Shown here piece after piece: positions 5,036 through 61,462 of a stretch of DNA of 64,000 nt; positions within the stretch are counted from its first letter, which is position 1, and the number at the start of each line of letters is the position of its first letter. Source of the DNA: Tetragenococcus koreensis (GTDB lineage Bacteria; Bacillota; Bacilli; Lactobacillales; Enterococcaceae). A program made the translations under genes and the position numbers. Where the stretch lies: the NCBI RefSeq assembly GCF_003795145.1, contig NZ_CP027786.1, forward strand, positions 2,108,001 to 2,172,000, given 5' to 3'. The notes beneath the pieces are model-generated. The model was not told the DNA's origin. It was given only the letters and a program-made list of their open reading frames with translations, and did not search any database.

Positions 5036-5188
5036 GCTGTGACATAAGTAAAAACAAGACAAAAATACCCGGACTATATTTGATGAAATTGCCAACTGTC
5101 GTGAATTTGCGACGAAGGCCTGCCAGACCGCAGGAGCAATCTCTCTATAGTTCGGATATTTTATTATCGAAATAACTTATGTCATAGC
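5036..5188 (+). repeat. Palindromic dispersed element, copy 1 (153 bp)
   Basis: Terminal inverted repeats GCTGTGACATAAGT (5036-5049) and ACTTATGTCATAGC (5175-5188) pair at 13 of 14 positions. An inner arm ATAGTTCGGATATTTT faces a weaker left partner around CCCGGACTATATT. Shares CAGGAGNAATCTCTCTATAG with copy 2 in the same orientation. It starts 13 bp after the ndh2 stop and its right end runs into CTCCATTTTT, so it could terminate ndh2 transcription. It occupies the place where eetA is found in related EET loci. Confidence 0.85.
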
Positions 5189-5231
5189 TCCATTTTTAAA
5201 AGAAACCAAAGATCATAGCCTACTAAAATTA

Positions 5232-23245: not shown

Positions 23246-23400
23246 GACAGTAATATCGGTAAAGACAAAACAAAAATACCCGAACTATATTTGACGAGAT
23301 TCGCTCCTTGTCTTAAATTACGACAAGGACCTGCTAAAATGCAGGAGTAATCTCTCTATAGTTCGGATATTTTATTCTTAAAAAGACTTATATCACAGCC
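23246..23400 (+). repeat. Palindromic dispersed element, copy 2 (about 155 bp, left end decayed)
   Basis: Same orientation as copy 1: CCCGAACTATATTTGA on the left; on the right CAGGAGTAATCTCTCTATAG, the arm ATAGTTCGGATATTTT, and the terminal repeat ACTTATATCACAGC (23386-23399). The left terminal repeat is too degenerate to place exactly. Begins 9 bp after the rpoZ stop. Confidence 0.78.
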
Positions 23401-30882: not shown

Positions 30883-30944
30883 AACAAAAAACTCCTCCTT
30901 TTAGAATCATTTCAATTCACAAAGGAGAAGTATATTTTACTTCA

Positions 30945-31042
30945 ACTCGTCACAATTCCTACGTTCGAATGATCGAAACAGGTACGAAGGGTTTAGAGAG
31001 TGTACTCAATCTCAGTCCATATGGACTCCCCTTTGCGAGCAG
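30945..31042 (-). ncRNA. TPP riboswitch (THI element)
   Basis: Minus-strand RNA shows the aptamer landmarks in order: GGGGAG, ACTGAGA (31010-31016), ACCCTTCGTACCTG and CGTAGGAA (near 30955). A downstream GAAGTA...TACTTC stem and the RBS GGAGGAG before thiT suggest control of translation or termination. It fits the thiamine operon thiT-thiW-thiM-thiE-thiD that follows. Confidence 0.95.
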
Positions 31043-32334: not shown

Positions 32335-32466
32335 GTTGTGACATAAGTCTTTTGGATAATAAAATATCCGAACCATAAGAGAGATTCCTCCTGCGATTAC
32401 TCGCCAAATTAAATCTCATCAAATATAGTTCGGATATTTTTGTCTTGGTTTTACTTATGTCACAGT
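32335..32466 (-). repeat. Palindromic dispersed element, copy 3 (132 bp)
   Basis: Terminal repeats GTTGTGACATAAGT (32335-32348) and ACTTATGTCACAGT (32453-32466); inner arms AAAATATCCGAACCAT and ATAGTTCGGATATTTT. Opposite orientation to copies 1 and 2; contains one CTCCTGCGATTACTCG core. Begins 20 bp after the prs stop. Shortest copy. Confidence 0.88.
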
Positions 32467-33558: not shown

Positions 33559-33610
33559 GGTATTAGCAGAAGATTCTTGCAGAGGAAAGTAAAAATAAAT
33601 AAAAAAAGGA

Positions 33611-33819
33611 GCTATGACGTAAGCCCTTTTGATAATAAAATATCCAAACTATAAGAGAGATTGCTCCTGCGATTACTCGTCGCACAAAACACTGCTCCTG
33701 CGATTACTCGTCGCACAAAACACTGCTCCTGCGATTACTCGTCGCAAATCCACAACGATTAGCAAATTTCAATAAATATAGTTCGGATATTTTTAAATTG
33801 TTTTCGCTTATATCACAGC
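33611..33819 (-). repeat. Palindromic dispersed element, copy 4 (209 bp) with three 31-bp tandem units
   Basis: Terminal repeats GCTATGACGTAAGC (33611-33624) and GCTTATATCACAGC (33806-33819); inner arms AAAATATCCAAACTAT and ATAGTTCGGATATTTT. Orientation as copies 3 and 5. Begins 12 bp after the glmU stop; on the glmU strand it ends in CTCCTTTTTTT, a good terminator tail. Longest copy because of the internal tandem repeat. Confidence 0.9.
33663..33746. repeat. 31-bp tandem repeat inside element copy 4
   Basis: Units start at 33663, 33694 and 33725, each beginning GCTCCTGCGATTACTCGTCG; the first two are identical over 31 bp and the third stops after 22 bp. Copy 5 has two such units (38497, 38528) and copy 3 a single, shorter core, so unit number varies between copies. 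Confidence 0.95.
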
Positions 33820-33831
33820 CCCTTTTTATTA

Positions 33832-35205
33832 TTATTGTAAAAAGGGTAACCTTTTAGCATAGCCTTCTTTGTTTACTTGTCGAGCACGAGCAATCGCCAT
33901 ATCATTTTCAAAAACATCGTCTGTAATTGTTGAACCTGCAGCTAGACAAGTATTACTAGCGATATTTACTGGTCCAATCAGATTCACTGCTGAGCCAATA
34001 AAACTATGATCGCCGACCGTTGTATGATGCTTATTTTTACCATCATAATTGACAAAGACAGTTCCACAGCCAACGTTAATTTCTTTACCTAATGTAGCAT
34101 CGCCCACATAGGTTAAATGACCAACTTTAGTCTTTTCGCCAATCACAGCATTTTTTATTTCAACAAAGTTACCAACATGTGCTTGCTGATGAACTTCAGC
34201 TTTAGGACGTAAATGAGCGTAAGGGCCCACATCTGCTCCTGAACGAACAATGCTTTCTTCAACAGTAGAAGTTTTCACGACGACATTATCTTCAATCACG
34301 CTATCAGTAATTTGTGAGTTCTGGGTAATCATGCAATTTTCGCCAATCGTTGTTTTACCCTTTAATGCAACGCCGGGTTCTATCACGGTTTCTGCACCAA
34401 TTTTTACTTCCTCATCAATATAAGAAGTATTTGGATCAATAAATGACACACCGTTACGCATGTGTTTGCGATTAATTCGTTTACGCATGATTTCATTTGC
34501 TTGCGCTAGCGCGACTCGATCATTAACACCAATAGATTCCTCAAAATCATTGGTTTGATAAGCAGCAACTATATGGCCGTTATCTTTTAAAATTTCGATA
34601 ATGTCTGTCAAATAATATTCTCCTTGGGCATTATCAGTCGTGATATTATCTAATGCTTCAAACAAAAGTTCGTTATCAAAACAATAGGTTCCCGTGTTAA
34701 TTTCTTTCACTTGCGCTTCTTCAGGAGAGGCGTCTTTTTGTTCAACAATTTTATCTACAATTCCCACGCGATCACGTAAAATTCGACCGTAGCCGTTTGG
34801 ATCGTCAGCTTGGGCAGTTAAAATCGTTGCTGAAGCATTTTTACCTTGGTGATATTCAAATAATTGATCCAAAGTCTCACTAGTTAAAAGTGGCGTATCG
34901 CCACTAATTACCAAGGTTGTTCCTTTTTTTTCTTTTAAAAAATCAGCAGCTTGCATAACTGCATGCCCTGTACCTAACTGTTCAGCTTGCAATGCATATG
35001 CGCTCCGTGCACCAAGTTGAGCTTTTACTTCATCAGCGCCATGACCAACAATTGTTACAACTTCACGCGGTTTAACTTCTTCGACACGATTCATAATATG
35101 TTCGACCATTGGCTTACCGCAAACTGGATGTAATACTTTATATAGCTTTGATTTCATTCGCGTCCCTTTACCAGCAGCTAGTATAATTGCGTAACGTTCG
35201 TCCAC
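33832..35205 (-). CDS. glmU: Bifunctional UDP-GlcNAc pyrophosphorylase / GlcN-1-P acetyltransferase
   Basis: 457 aa from GTG at 35205 (GGAG 8 bp upstream), matching the usual length; the longer frame adds an unrelated stretch. N-terminal uridyltransferase with [13 protein letters not shown] and substrate residues GTGHAV; C-terminal left-handed beta-helix of hexapeptide repeats ([16 protein letters not shown]) with the acetyl-CoA site. Makes UDP-GlcNAc for wall precursors. Second-last of the purR-ndk-glmU row. Confidence 0.96.
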
Positions 35206-35304
35206 CTGTCTCACTCCATTTTTAATTTTTGCTTGTTTAAGTGTAGCCCACTTGTTTGGACTTTTCAACCAATGAGACAAAATTATAGGTAGACCAATTT
35301 TTAA

Positions 35305-36733: not shown

Positions 36734-37573
36734 TTAATTTTCTGCTTTTGTTCGTTGCTTCCGTTGAAATAGCATATAGACCTTTTTGAACACATTCACC
36801 ACTAGAAATAACGCAATAAATACTAAGGTAATCGTAGCTCCTGGTGGTGTGTCAATATAAAACGAGCTGATCAAACCGCTCGACATTCCTATAAGTCCAA
36901 TTAAAATACTGATCAAAATCACTGCGTTAAAACTTTTTCCTAAACGCATACTAATAGCGGCCGGCAAAACCATGATGGCCGAAATTAATAACGCTCCTGC
37001 GATCGGAATCATAATAGCAATTGCTACACCAGTCAACACATTAAACAGCATAGACATCCAATGAATTGGTAAGCCATCAACGTGAGCAGTTTCCTCGTCA
37101 AAGGTTAAAACATACATCGGTCGCTTGAATAAAAGAAACAATAGCAATGTTAAAGCAAATAATATACCTAAAAATATAACTTGCGGCTGCGTAATCGTCA
37201 CAATAGAACCAAACAAATAGGATTGAATACTAGCAGAAGAGTTTCCCCCGGTAATGTTCATCAGTACAAGCGCGACTGCCAGGCCGCCTGCCATTAAAAT
37301 TGCAATCGAAATTTCTGAGTATCCGCTGTAGATCATCCGCAAGTATTCTAATAAAACAGCGGCAATGACTACCACAATCATAGTGGTAAATGTGGGGTTC
37401 AAATTAAGAAAAAAGCCCAAAGCTACTCCGGCTAATGATACATGAGATAAGGTATCAGCCATAAGCGATTGTCGGCGAATCACTAAAAAAACGCCTAACA
37501 TGGGAGCAATTCCGGCAATAAAAAGAGCCGCTAAGAAAGCTCTTCTCATGAACTCATATGAAAGCAGCGCCAT
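36734..37573 (-). CDS. znuB: Zinc/manganese-type ABC transporter permease
   Basis: 279 aa with eight or so hydrophobic helices of the ABC-3 family: [43 protein letters not shown] at the start, [15 protein letters not shown], and [12 protein letters not shown]. Overlaps the ATPase gene end by 28 bp. Zinc is the more likely metal, by the ATPase sequence and the Zur-like site upstream. No substrate-binding lipoprotein is adjacent; it must be encoded elsewhere. Confidence 0.9.
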
Positions 37574-38226
37574 TGAGTCCCCTCCTTTCGTACTAAATGA
37601 ATCTGACGTTCAGCATATTCTTTAATGTCTTCATGGTCATGAGTGATCATAAGAACGCCCTTATCGTGTTCATGGGCGCTATGTCGCAATAATCGATAAA
37701 AGTTCGCGCGAGACTCCTCATCCATCCCATTGGTCGGTTCATCCAAAATAAAAAGATCAGGATCCGTAGCAAAAACCCGGGCTAAACTAATCCGTTGCTT
37801 TTGTCCTCCCGATAATTCACCAATCCGTCTATGTCGCATATCCCACATACCAACAGCTTCTAGTGCCTTTTGTACATGATCACGGTCTAATGCAGTAAAC
37901 CGTTTGAACCAACGGCCTTTAGGATAACGGCCAGAACTAACTAACTCATAAACAGTACTAGGAAATCCTACGTTAAACGAAGCAATTAATTGTGGAATAT
38001 AGCCAATACTAAGTTTTTCACCTTCATTATTCTTATCCGAAATATAGATACTACCTGATTCAGGCTTTAATAACCCTAAAGTTGCTTTAACCAAAGTTGA
38101 TTTGGCTGCGCCATTTTCGCCGGTTAAAGTAACAAATTCGCCATCACTCACATGATAATTAATATCTTCCAAAACAGGTTCTTCATCATAGTAAAAAGTA
38201 AGATTTTTCACTTCGATATAACGCAC
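37546..38226 (-). CDS. znuC: Zinc/manganese-type ABC transporter ATP-binding protein
   Basis: 226 aa. Walker [10 protein letters not shown] (Ala where many ABC proteins have Gly-x-Gly, typical for this family), signature LSGGQKQR, Walker B LFILDEPT, switch His in [12 protein letters not shown] at 38226 is in frame and 6 bp after GGAGGG; an ATG two bases earlier is out of frame. Energises the permease encoded next, with overlap. Likely zinc-regulated (see 38340). Confidence 0.9.
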
Positions 38227-38360: not shown

Positions 38361-38443
38361 ATTGACAAAGCTTAATGTATCAAATCTTTCAGCTTTCGTC
38401 AAGAAAAATAGGAATATCTAATCAACCTTAACGACATAAAAAA

Positions 38444-38622
38444 ACTATGACATAAGCCCTTTTGATAATAAAATATCCGAACCATAAAGAGAGGTTGCTC
38501 CTGCGATTACTCGTCGCACAAAACACTGCTCCTGCGGTTACTCGTCGCAAATCCACAATGATTAGCAAATCTCAATAAATATAGTTCGGATATTTTTGAC
38601 TTGTTTTTTCTTATGTCACAGT
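38444..38622 (-). repeat. Palindromic dispersed element, copy 5 (179 bp) with two 31-bp units
   Basis: Terminal repeats ACTATGACATAAGC (38444-38457) and TCTTATGTCACAGT (38609-38622); inner arms AAAATATCCGAACCAT and ATAGTTCGGATATTTT. The 31-bp unit starts at 38497 and 38528. Begins 10 bp after the ispE stop; on the ispE strand it ends in TTTTTTT. Confidence 0.9.
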
Positions 38623-38632
38623 CCTTATGTCA

Positions 38633-39484
38633 TTAATTTAATGTTCGTACCATATATACTTCATCACAAAAGCCTTTTACCGCATTTACAATCCGCTTCG
38701 CACGACTTTGCTTTTGACATAAAGCAAATACAGTAGGACCGCTACCGCTCATTAAAGCAGCATCAGCACCATACTTGATCATACGTGTTTTGATCTGTTG
38801 GATCACCTGATGTTTAGGAATAGTTACGTCTTCTAAACTATTTCCCATATAATACAACATCTCTTGATAATCTTGCTTTAAAATTGCTGCAGCTAGATTC
38901 TTCATATCAGGATGTGTGATACGTGTCATATCCACTTGTTGAAAAATTTTCCTAGTTGAAACACTCATACGCGGCTTAACTAAAATAACCCAACAAGGGG
39001 GCATCGGCCTCAATTCTTTAACAATTTCACCCTTACCAGCAATAAATGAAGTAGTGCCATATAGACAATAAGGAACATCTGTGCCAACGTGCATACCAAT
39101 ATCAATCATTTCTTCCATCGAAAGATTTAGTGACCATAAGCGATTTAAACCACGCAAAGTAGCAGCACAGTCTGTACTACCACCACCAAGTCCTGCCGCA
39201 ACTGGAATATTTTTTTGAATAGTAATTTTGATTCCTTCAGTAACATCGTAGCGTTTTTTTATAATAGCGGCTGCTTGGTAAACGTTATTGCGATGATCAA
39301 TCGGTAAAAAAGCTTTATTGGATTCAATAACAATTTGATCTTCAGGCAGGCGCTCAAAACTTAAATGGTCAGCCAAATCAACACTTGACATGACCATTTC
39401 TAACTCGTGATAGCCGTCTTCTCTTTTATGCAGCACATCTAAGCCTAAATTGATTTTTGCCGGTGCTTTTTCAATTATTTCCAT
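38633..39484 (-). CDS. ispE: 4-diphosphocytidyl-2-C-methyl-D-erythritol kinase
   Basis: 283 aa from ATG at 39484 (GGGTGG 5 bp upstream), the normal length; the longer frame is not supported. GHMP kinase: KAPAKINLGLDV, the ATP-binding PVAAGLGGGSTD, MSGSGPTVFAL near the C-terminus. Step of the MEP isoprenoid pathway, although enterococci generally make IPP by mevalonate; the gene is often kept. Own unit. Confidence 0.94.
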   Translation of the reverse strand: MEIIEKAPAKINLGLDVLHKREDGYHELEMVMSSVDLADHLSFERLPEDQIVIESNKAFLPIDHRNNVYQAAAIIKKRYDVTEGIKITIQKNIPVAAGLGGGSTDCAATLRGLNRLWSLNLSMEEMIDIGMHVGTDVPYCLYGTTSFIAGKGEIVKELRPMPPCWVILVKPRMSVSTRKIFQQVDMTRITHPDMKNLAAAILKQDYQEMLYYMGNSLEDVTIPKHQVIQQIKTRMIKYGADAALMSGSGPTVFALCQKQSRAKRIVNAVKGFCDEVYMVRTLN

Positions 39485-39580
39485 GTTTTCCACCCATTCG
39501 AAATAGTCATGTTGTATTTTATCATAGCAGATTTTCCTTGTATAGATACAAGTGACGGTTTTAAAACAAACACAAGAAAA

Positions 39581-39616
39581 GCGCAAAAAACAACGACTAA
39601 TCGCTGCTTTTTACGC
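39581..39616 (-). terminator. Terminator of treP
   Basis: GCGTAAAAAGCAGCGA pairs with TCGTTGTTTTTTGCGC on the minus strand across a 4-nt loop. The T-run lies inside the distal arm, so the inner stem GCAGCGA/TCGTTGT acts as the terminator stem. Confidence 0.75.
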
Positions 39617-59779: not shown

Positions 59780-60000
59780 AAGCGCCTTTCAAGTAGGTTA
59801 AACTAACCTATCCGAAAGACGCTTATACACGTGGTTCCACTTTCATTTGCAATTATTTCCTCATGAAAAGCGTAACGAACTTTCTCCGTCTTTGGTTTTG
59901 CCAAAGCCACTTACAGGTGCATTTCTTAAACTTTTTTTGACCGCCTCGCAGCAAAAGCCGTCTCTCTGTGAAAAAAAGATTAATACTTCGTCTGTTCATC
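59780..60000 (-). ncRNA. T-box riboswitch sensing tRNA-Cys, controlling cysS
   Basis: Between gltX and cysS on the minus strand. The stem-I specifier region reads AGAAATGCACC with codon TGC (59919-59921, Cys). The T-box bulge GAAAGTGGAACCACG (about 59829-59843) carries TGGA, whose A would pair with the U73 discriminator of tRNA-Cys. A terminator follows. Both ends of tRNA-Cys thus match. Uncharged tRNA-Cys would allow cysS expression. Confidence 0.93.
59782..59826 (-). terminator. T-box terminator of cysS
   Basis: On the minus strand AAGCGTCTTTC (59819-59827) and GAAAGGCGCTT (59780-59791) pair around an inner AGGTTAGTTTAACCT stem, followed by ATTTTTAAC. The alternative antiterminator uses the T-box bulge just upstream. 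Confidence 0.88.
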
Positions 60001-60004
60001 GTGT

Positions 60005-61462
60005 TTACAGTATTTCATTCAAATGTGCTAATGCTTTTTCTCTACCTAATAATTCAATAGTATCCGGTAATTCTGGTCCATGCATCGCACCAGATACCGC
60101 AATTCGAATCGGCATATATAAATTCTTGCCTTTTGAACCTGTTTCTTTTTGGACATCCTTAATTGCTTTTTTAACAGTCGGAGCATCTACTATCTCCAAT
60201 TGTTCTAATTGCGCTTTAAATGCATTAAGAACTGCCGGAACATTTTCACCTGCCAACACCTCTTTAGCTGTATCATCTAAAATAGGATGTTCGTCGAAGA
60301 AAAGATAAGTTAAATCAACAATTTGAGCAGCATAGCTCATTTGGGGTTGATACAAGCTAACTAGTTTTTTCACCCATGCCAAGCGTTCAGAACTAGGGTT
60401 TTTTTCTATACGTCCATCTGCTTGTAAATAAGGTAAACACATATTTGTTAGTGTATCGATATCTAATTGTTTAATATAATAATTTCCGATCCATTCTAAT
60501 TTTTTAGCGTCAAATGAAGCCGGCGATTTACTTAAACGACTTGATTCAAACATATCAATAATTTCTTGTTTTGAAAAAATTTCGTCTTCGCCTTTAGGCG
60601 ACCAACCAAGTAAGGCAATGAAATTCAACATTGCTTCAGGTAAGTAACCTAGCTGACGATATTCTTCAATAAATTGCAAGATTGATTCATCACGTTTACT
60701 CAATTTTTTGCCCGTATCGGCATTGATAATCAACGTCATATGGCCAAACTTCGGAATGGGCCAGCCAAATGCTTCATAAATCATCATTTGCTTGGGTGTA
60801 TTCGCAATATGATCGTCGCCGCGTAAAACATGCGTAATTCCCATCATATGATCATCTACAGTTACCGCAAAATTATAAGTCGGCATGCCATCTTTCTTTT
60901 GAATAATAAAGTCGCCACCTACATTATCTGATTCAAAAACAATTTCATCTTTTACCAGATCATCAAAACGATATTCAGTATTCTTCGGCACACGGAAACG
61001 GACAACTGGAACGATTCCTTGAGCTTCTTTTGCAGCTTGTTCTTCTACGGATAGATGAGCACATTTACCGCTATAATGAGGAATTTCACCTCTTGCTTTT
61101 TGAGCGTCTCTTTCTTCTTCTAATTCCTCTTGCGTACAATAGCATTTATATGCTCGATTACTAGCTAACAACTGTTCAATCAGTGGCAAATAGATATCTT
61201 GCCGTTCTGACTGACGATAGGGACCATAATCGCCCGGTTTTTCTGGTGATTCATCCCAGTCAACGCCTAACCAAGCTAGGTTATCCAATTGGCTTTTTTC
61301 TCCGTCTTCAATGTTTCTTTTTTGGTCGGTATCTTCGATGCGAATAATAAAATCGCCATCCATATGGCGAGCGTATAAATAATTAAACAAAGCGGTTCGA
61401 GCATTGCCTATGTGTAAGTGCCCCGTGGGGCTTGGTGCGTACCGCACACGTACTTTCGTCAT
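60005..61462 (-). CDS. gltX: Glutamyl-tRNA synthetase
   Basis: 485 aa; ATG at 61462 is preferred over 61468 because GAGG is better spaced (9 bp). [22 protein letters not shown], zinc-type CYCTQEE...GKCAHL segment, KLSKRDES loop. Charges tRNA-Glu (and by family in Firmicutes also tRNA-Gln). First of gltX-cysS-mrnC-rlmB. Confidence 0.98.

Follow-up and report, generated by a model that had tools for sequence, protein, structure and literature searches.

A variable array of hairpin modules at the apex of a palindromic element in Tetragenococcus koreensis

The window analysed here is a stretch of 64,000 nucleotides from Tetragenococcus koreensis (contig NZ_CP027786.1, positions 2,108,001 to 2,172,000 of the forward strand). 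It contains five copies of a palindromic element, two of which carry short hairpin units in tandem: copy 4, between prs and glmU, and copy 5, flanked by an ABC transporter ATPase gene and ispE. The features are given below in window coordinates; R is the base of the unit that is either A or G.

5061..5197, minus strand: copy 1 of the element, longer core form (TGCTCCTGCGGTCTGGCAGGCCTTCGTCGCA), without the short unit
23341..23399, minus strand: copy 2 of the same element, longer core form, without the short unit
32339..32441, plus strand: copy 3 of the same element, with the degenerate core TCCTCCTGCGATTACTCGCCAAA
32487-33473, minus strand: prs, left of copy 4
33594..33836, plus strand: whole palindromic element, copy 4 (inverted repeats)
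33594-33624 and 33806-33836: outer arms of copy 4, with A-/T-rich ends; they could form a terminator-like stem
33637..33653, plus strand: left arm of the inner stem of copy 4, AAAATATCCAAACTATA, 94% complementary to 33777-33793
33662..33684, plus strand: hairpin unit 1 of copy 4 (23-mer, R=A)
33693..33715, plus strand: hairpin unit 2 of copy 4 (R=A), after the spacer CAAAACAC
33724..33746, plus strand: hairpin unit 3 of copy 4 (R=A)
33777..33793, plus strand: right arm of the inner stem of copy 4 (inverted repeats)
33832-35280, minus strand: glmU, right of copy 4, its last bases overlapping the right outer arm
37546-38226, minus strand: ABC transporter ATPase gene, left of copy 5
38443..38625, plus strand: whole palindromic element, copy 5 (ends approximate; inverted repeats; fold z -7.91)
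38496..38518, plus strand: hairpin unit 1 of copy 5 (R=A)
38527..38549, plus strand: hairpin unit 2 of copy 5 (R=G)
38633-39586, minus strand: ispE, right of copy 5

The hairpin unit and its palindromic element

The hairpin unit consists of the 23-nt sequence TGCTCCTGCGRTTACTCGTCGCA plus a short spacer, and is present in 0 to 8 copies at the apex of the element. In copy 4, three identical 23-mers recur with an exact period of 31, separated by CAAAACAC; both direct reading and Tandem Repeats Finder place them at 33662-33746, where the latter reports period 31 with 100% matches and a score of 170, its top value among 5 rows for the window. A first-pass annotation of the window had counted three units in copy 4 and two in copy 5, and both counts hold, the second by direct reading at 38496-38518 and 38527-38549. 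The period that it gave was right, but each of its unit starts falls one base inside the unit. Its statement that the remaining copies have at most one core is also borne out: the three contain no unit at up to 3 substitutions, and the degenerate core of the copy at 32339 scores as one unit at 3 errors if gaps are allowed.

Elsewhere in the window, on the minus strand, a TPP riboswitch and a T-box leader were found at 30939-31042 and 59812-60008, respectively. By eye, the TPP riboswitch is near genes that resemble thiamine transport and salvage genes.

The best score against solved structures, 272.8 bits over 273 aa to the E. faecalis protein 3dzv, is far lower than an identical protein would give, and speaks against Enterococcus faecalis as the species of the window. 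In the T. koreensis genome (2,732,026 bases in 2 contigs) a search for the element gave 46 matches, which were grouped into 31 loci. The 17-nt hairpin occurs 42 times at up to 2 mismatches, against a single occurrence of the reversed control pattern. When up to 3 substitutions are allowed, 15 of the 31 loci contain no unit, 8 contain one, 3 contain two and 2 contain three, with one locus each at 4, 6 and 8 units; those with 6 and 8 are at G000:C1 1146425-1146713 and 1376824-1377157. The first-pass annotation had proposed that unit number differs between otherwise similar elements, and had named identical counts in all strains and all other copies as the observation that would speak against this; over the 31 loci the counts vary from 0 to 8, a wider range than could be seen in the window.

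The element has a nested layout. Outer arms such as GGAGCTATGACGTAAGC / GCTTATATCACAGCCCC adjoin A- and T-rich ends, an inner stem (e.g., AAAATATCCAAACTATA / TATAGTTCGGATATTTT) lies inward of them, and the apex bears the unit or units. Locus L231 is a simple case, with a single unit tipping the inner palindrome. Some members without units have a longer core, such as TGCTCCTGCGGTCTGGCAGGCCTTCGTCGCA at copy 1, and at three loci in T. solitarius (L241, L242, L245) the final member of the array is the longer core form. Three loci of the T. koreensis genome (L216, L232, L234) have units, with no palindromic backbone seen by eye.

Reading by eye also identified at least six loci in which the core is reversed relative to the arms (L215, L218, L222, L226, L243, L246). 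At the locus of copy 3, T. koreensis and the related genome G220 (L205) differ in that the arms are swapped round a degenerate core of the same orientation; this arm swap between two Tetragenococcus species suggests inversion or separate insertions. Reversed cores may result from inversion of the core between its own inverted repeats, or from separate insertions. Nothing clear was seen by eye regarding a replication-strand bias of the motif in this genome.

Unit number, terminator position and folding

In this genome, 21 of 22 pairs of adjacent units within an array have the same base, A or G, at R, compared with a mean of 11.9 after shuffling (p 3e-5). The spacers, which are 8-11 nt long, are identical or near-identical inside each array. 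A similar analysis of the 120 loci listed from other Bacilli found equal A/G states in 64 of 81 adjacent pairs (shuffled mean 42.5), a level of agreement reached in 0 of 20000 shuffles. In these other Bacilli, adjacent spacers are identical within arrays in 26 of 44 cases, compared with 22 of 666 first-spacer pairs between arrays, and the arrays at the loci listed extend to at least 12 units, with periods from 31 to 41. Arrays are uniform inside and differ one from another.

Seven orthologous comparisons, between species with one genome per species, were available at six loci. Two of them show a difference: L218/L243, where one side is a 5'-truncated remnant with 0 units and the other has 4, of which two are exact and the remaining two have one error and two errors, and L233/L194, where 0 units (longer core) are set against 1 (one mismatch). 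No clear difference is seen for L225/L209, for copy 2 against either L208 or L201, for copy 3/L205, which have a degenerate core in both, or for L215/L214, which have no units on either side and in which L214 is without an apex. The orthologues of copy 2 in G217 and G218 are, like copy 2, without the short unit. The pair L190/L191, near-identical with 3167 matches over 3173 aligned bases and 64 gap columns, has equal counts.

The uniform arrays and the species differences at shared loci therefore support local duplication and deletion of units. The slippage suggested in the first-pass annotation is thus supported in part, as regards local expansion or contraction, with uniform arrays and orthologues of 0 versus 4 and 0 versus 1 units in its favour; on the other side, five of the seven orthologous comparisons are without clear difference, in the 0 versus 1 case a longer core form is compared with a short unit, and the near-identical pair has equal counts in two genomes. 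As a strain-typing locus, a use that the same annotation proposed, the array is a candidate, the differences at shared loci being those between species. In Enterococcus sp. BWB1-3, two arrays of 10 and 8 units (L059 and L018) are composed mostly of units sharing a variant: loop TTTCTC for TTACTC; stem TTCGG for TGCGG. These shared variants are a further sign of in-place amplification.

The two gene gaps that contain the arrays were compared with those of sister genomes, of which 8 of 8 were resolved for the ABC-ispE gap and 7 for the prs-glmU gap (all but G221). In five sisters (G223, G222, G216, G217, G218) the ABC-ispE gap contains a plain hairpin, AAAAAAGC(T/C)GGG...CCCAGC. In G219 a unit-less member of the family lies in this gap inside GCTGGGA...TCCCAGC, in the opposite orientation, while G220 has a different palindrome and G221 an unlike sequence. 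The prs-glmU gap contains a plain terminator-like hairpin in G222, G223 and G220, a unit-less family member in G219, and a longer, unlike sequence in G216, G217 and G218. No unit was found at up to 3 substitutions in any of the 7 prs-glmU and 8 ABC-ispE gaps resolved.

Several sister gaps hold plain terminator-like hairpins; the element thus takes the place of the terminator, either by entering the loop or by replacing the stem. At copy 4 the terminator stem of the sisters is replaced without a visible split, and no empty site with a target duplication could be defined in the sister gaps read. A scan with a terminator consensus identified one site in the copy-4 element, at the left arm on the minus strand, and no site in the copy-5 element.

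As minus-strand RNA, the sense in which the flanking genes are read, copy 4 has a predicted folding energy of -85.1 kcal/mol (z -6.69) and copy 5 of -71.2 kcal/mol (z -7.91), in each case with 0 of 200 shuffles as good. The predicted folds of both have outer and inner stems that enclose the units. Folding with different unit numbers had been suggested as a check in the first-pass annotation; when it was carried out, the outer and inner stems persisted around 2 and 3 units. The accompanying idea of an expandable hairpin arm is correct in that the units are hairpins at the apex, and incorrect in that they do not extend the arms.

Eight natural elements with 1, 1, 2, 3, 3, 4, 6 and 8 units were folded with 40-nt flanks. 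In this order, the minus-strand energies are -64.5, -68.7, -80.5, -97.5, -88.1, -97.3, -120.6 and -147.8, and the plus-strand energies are -57.6, -72.3, -59.4, -82.9, -81.9, -94.1, -96.7 and -97.5; the former drop roughly with unit number, whereas the latter are less regular. A lone unit has a predicted RNA energy of -5.7 (plus) and -4.7 (minus) in the A form, and of -3.1 (plus) and -3.3 (minus) in the G form. As DNA, the G-form hairpin has energies of -2.6 and -2.5 on the two strands. For the G form the two strands thus differ little in energy, which singles out neither of them.

The 23-mer across Bacilli

An exact match to a 21-nt part of the unit occurs in at least 120 stretches of named genomes. 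The matches listed cover at least 18 named genera of Bacilli, including Enterococcus, Tetragenococcus, Lactococcus, Anaerobacillus, Evansella, Psychrobacillus, Paenisporosarcina, Caryophanon and Solibacillus, as well as a Streptococcaceae MAG. One Aquisalimonas MAG contig is also among the matches listed, and we think that it is mis-binned.

Conservation among the 120 loci listed extends over 23 nt only, followed by an A-rich tail, in a table that is partly ascertained in that each locus needed one exact 21-mer. At these loci, the first two positions of the unit, which the search pattern does not cover, are T in 231 of 233 and G in 229 of 233 units. The sole freely varying base is A in 74 and G in 159 of the 233, with a T opposite in 230. 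When the pattern was relaxed so that only the 11-nt loop and the two end bases were fixed, 22 of the 24 genomes searched gave matches, with 199 places in G200 and 142 in G202 (controls 0 in both); the full canonical 23-mer is present at 134 of the 150 places listed, which are from two Anaerobacillus genomes. At four loci (L009, L053, L095, L122) the same 11-nt loop is closed by a different 6-bp stem that is fully paired, and a fifth (L068) combines another alternative paired 6-bp stem with one loop change. In such variant-stem hairpins R is unable to pair with T, yet A and G both occur.

The distribution of the motif is patchy. It was found in 4 of 200 Bacilli genomes at up to 1 mismatch, T. 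koreensis included, and, within the family, in 19 of 105 genomes at up to 2 mismatches, with 0 to 40 places in sister Tetragenococcus. The 23-mer sits in different backbones among Bacilli. A search of plasmids and phages gave no match, and two stretches of viral contigs have the exact pattern.

Most motif clusters at the loci listed (110 of 128) are outside ORFs of at least 90 aa, with 18 of 128 inside. The 101 clusters at these loci for which both neighbouring genes could be read are in tandem (67), convergent (25) and divergent (9) settings. No family stood out among the neighbour proteins (846 ORFs in the 120 loci listed), and neighbour clusters read by eye comprise ABC ATPases, sensor kinases, ordinary genes, and open frames made of repeats. 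In Evansella halocellulosilytica (L087:989-1436, L109:3173-3776) units are arranged in long arrays with open frames of about 110-200 codons.

Protein families that might mobilise the unit were sought in motif-positive genomes. PF01797 (Y1) has a match in 13 of 20 such genomes and none in the other 7, five of which hold 48-142 motif places. Among 15 genomes, PF00078 (RVT_1 reverse transcriptase) has no match in G222 and G208, and PF01548 (IS110) has none in G222, G203, G211, or the motif-free G217. These two sets contain one genome twice (G309 = G202) and two motif-free genomes (G217, G221), which leaves 12 distinct motif-bearing genomes. Among 12 genomes, PF07282 (TnpB) has no match in G222, G201, G202, G204 and G208. 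Absence from these searches is not absolute because many of the genomes are drafts. In T. koreensis itself (G000:C1 966008-967486) a Y1 transposase match is beside a TnpB-type match, in an IS200/IS605-like arrangement.

Interpretation and comparison with known systems

The array is probably a series of locally duplicated hairpin modules at the apex of a non-coding, MITE-like (EFAR-like) nested palindrome, each module comprising the 23-nt TGCTCC + TGCGR-TTACTCG-TCGCA and a short spacer. Once an element is in place, slippage or unequal exchange between the direct repeats would add or remove units, and the outer arms might continue to end transcription whatever the unit number. More tentatively, the module may have passed from one backbone or genus to another, perhaps as a one-strand hairpin. 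This form is proposed because a T lies opposite the one position that varies freely between A and G, and the argument is a weak one.

Other origins and roles for the array were considered. That a Y1 (RAYT/TnpA) transposase moves each unit as a REP-like sequence, with arrays built up by repeated targeted insertion, seems highly improbable: the unit is a small hairpin with conserved GCTCC on its 5' side, is mostly intergenic and of high copy number, and shares the tandem, convergent and divergent gene-setting preference (67, 25 and 9) described for REPs in the available part of PMC3733652, but PF01797 is missing from 7 of 20 motif-positive genomes despite 48-142 places in five of them, the terminal GTAG or CGTC tag is missing, and no protein family stands out beside the motif in the 120 loci listed. 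In addition, the likeness of units within arrays fits in-place copying better than new insertions. It is quite unlikely that the units are under selection as sites to which a conserved protein or RNA binds (a regulator, chromosome organiser or uptake signal) rather than selfish DNA. The near-invariance of the 23-mer across families and the few loci with a changed but paired stem round the same loop would suit such a function, but not the patchy occurrence (4 of 200 Bacilli and 19 of 105 family genomes; 0 to 40 places in sister Tetragenococcus), the prs-glmU and ABC-ispE gaps without units in all resolved sisters, or the inconsistent gene neighbours.

A role at transcript ends, in which units in RNA tune the stability of or read-through from the glmU and ispE messages and array length acts as a dial, would be in keeping with the strong gene-sense folds (z -6.69 and -7.91) and with the minus-strand energy that drops roughly with unit number. 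Yet the units are at the apex, distant from the outer stem, and the energies of a lone unit are small (-3 to -6 kcal/mol); this role is very unlikely. More speculative, and in our estimate unlikely, is a hairpin cassette of about 31 bp that spreads horizontally across Bacilli by an undescribed mechanism, enters existing palindromes of unrelated backbones and amplifies in place, being mobilised in trans by none of Y1, RVT_1, IS110 and TnpB. If true, such a self-contained mobile cassette would be among the smallest mobile DNA units.

On the preferred reading, local amplification in an EFAR-like palindrome, the variable-number repeat itself is ordinary, and the near-invariant hairpin module common to Bacilli is the part worth following. 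A 23-letter core that recurs nearly unaltered, often in tandem, in many related Gram-positives hints at a common mechanism of spreading or maintenance. Its near-invariance across families, together with its absence or rarity in close sisters and up to about 200 places elsewhere, implies shared copying or recognition machinery, of which no description was found in the open-access literature. Finding this machinery could explain a class of orphan bacterial palindromes, and the arrays, with 0 to 12 units, provide a natural range of lengths in which hairpin number could be related to transcript ends and genome stability. A text search for the unit sequence in open-access papers gave a 13-letter string in a crayfish study as its sole match, and nothing useful was found in open-access literature on Firmicutes RAYT, TnpA-REP, or Bacillaceae-1 as a repeat.

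REPs are described in the available part of PMC3733652 as hairpins of 20-40 bp in high copy number, mostly intergenic and sometimes in tandem with flanking DNA, that have GT pairs in their stems and whose changes in organisation serve for genotyping. The 23-mer hairpin differs in having no unpaired GTAG/CGTC end tag; it is flanked by GCTCC and an A-rich tail, and the CGTC that it contains falls within the loop and 3' arm rather than at the end. Its stem is about 5-6 bp and its loop 5-7 nt, compared with 8-9 bp and 4-5 nt in CGTC REPs according to the same part of that source, in which the term Firmicutes is absent. The Y1 gene expected in genomes with REPs of the GTAG (RAYT) type was not found in 7 of the 20 genomes searched with PF01797. 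Palindromic repeats at a constant period also recall CRISPR arrays, but the spacers here are 8-11 nt and the same or nearly so within an array, not unique.

Rfam covariance models gave no match to the element at the gathering score, nor at E <= 1 over 33560-33880. Bacillaceae-1 RNA (RF01690) was hit in 11 of 48 selected loci, in 7 of these within 150 nt of the motif, and is part of the setting of the 23-mer at some Bacillaceae and Planococcaceae loci. None was found in the T. koreensis genome or listed for the motif-bearing G089, and the alignments inspected contain no RF01690 match over the 23-mer. Matches within about 30 nt of the 23-mer are at L031:3651-3717, L034:970-1036, L026:1777-1841 and L084:7100-7166. 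RF01690 is dispersed, occurring in 45 of 200 Bacilli genomes, 9 of them with at least 20 hits (with no more than 24 candidates scored per genome). Bacillaceae-1 may belong to a mobile repeat and not to a single RNA gene.

EFAR elements are modular in length and insert into stem-loop targets. The T. koreensis element is in a terminator position at two loci, and its family member in G219 is inside a stem. Like EFAR, it is an intergenic palindrome with stem-loop folding and variable length, and the two can be likened by description, rather than by sequence, as small MITE-like palindromes found in one bacterial family. The enterococcal EFAR repeats (De Gregorio et al. 2009, FEMS Microbiol Lett 292:7) are cited in PMC3733652, and PMC2267715 describes Efa-1 as an intergenic pair of adjacent stem-loops; Efa-1 and EFAR may be identical. 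Apical arrays of a 23-mer common to other families do not figure in the available parts of these two descriptions (PMC3733652, PMC2267715). In architecture, the element resembles both enterococcal EFAR and tandem REPs, with EFAR the nearest in kind.
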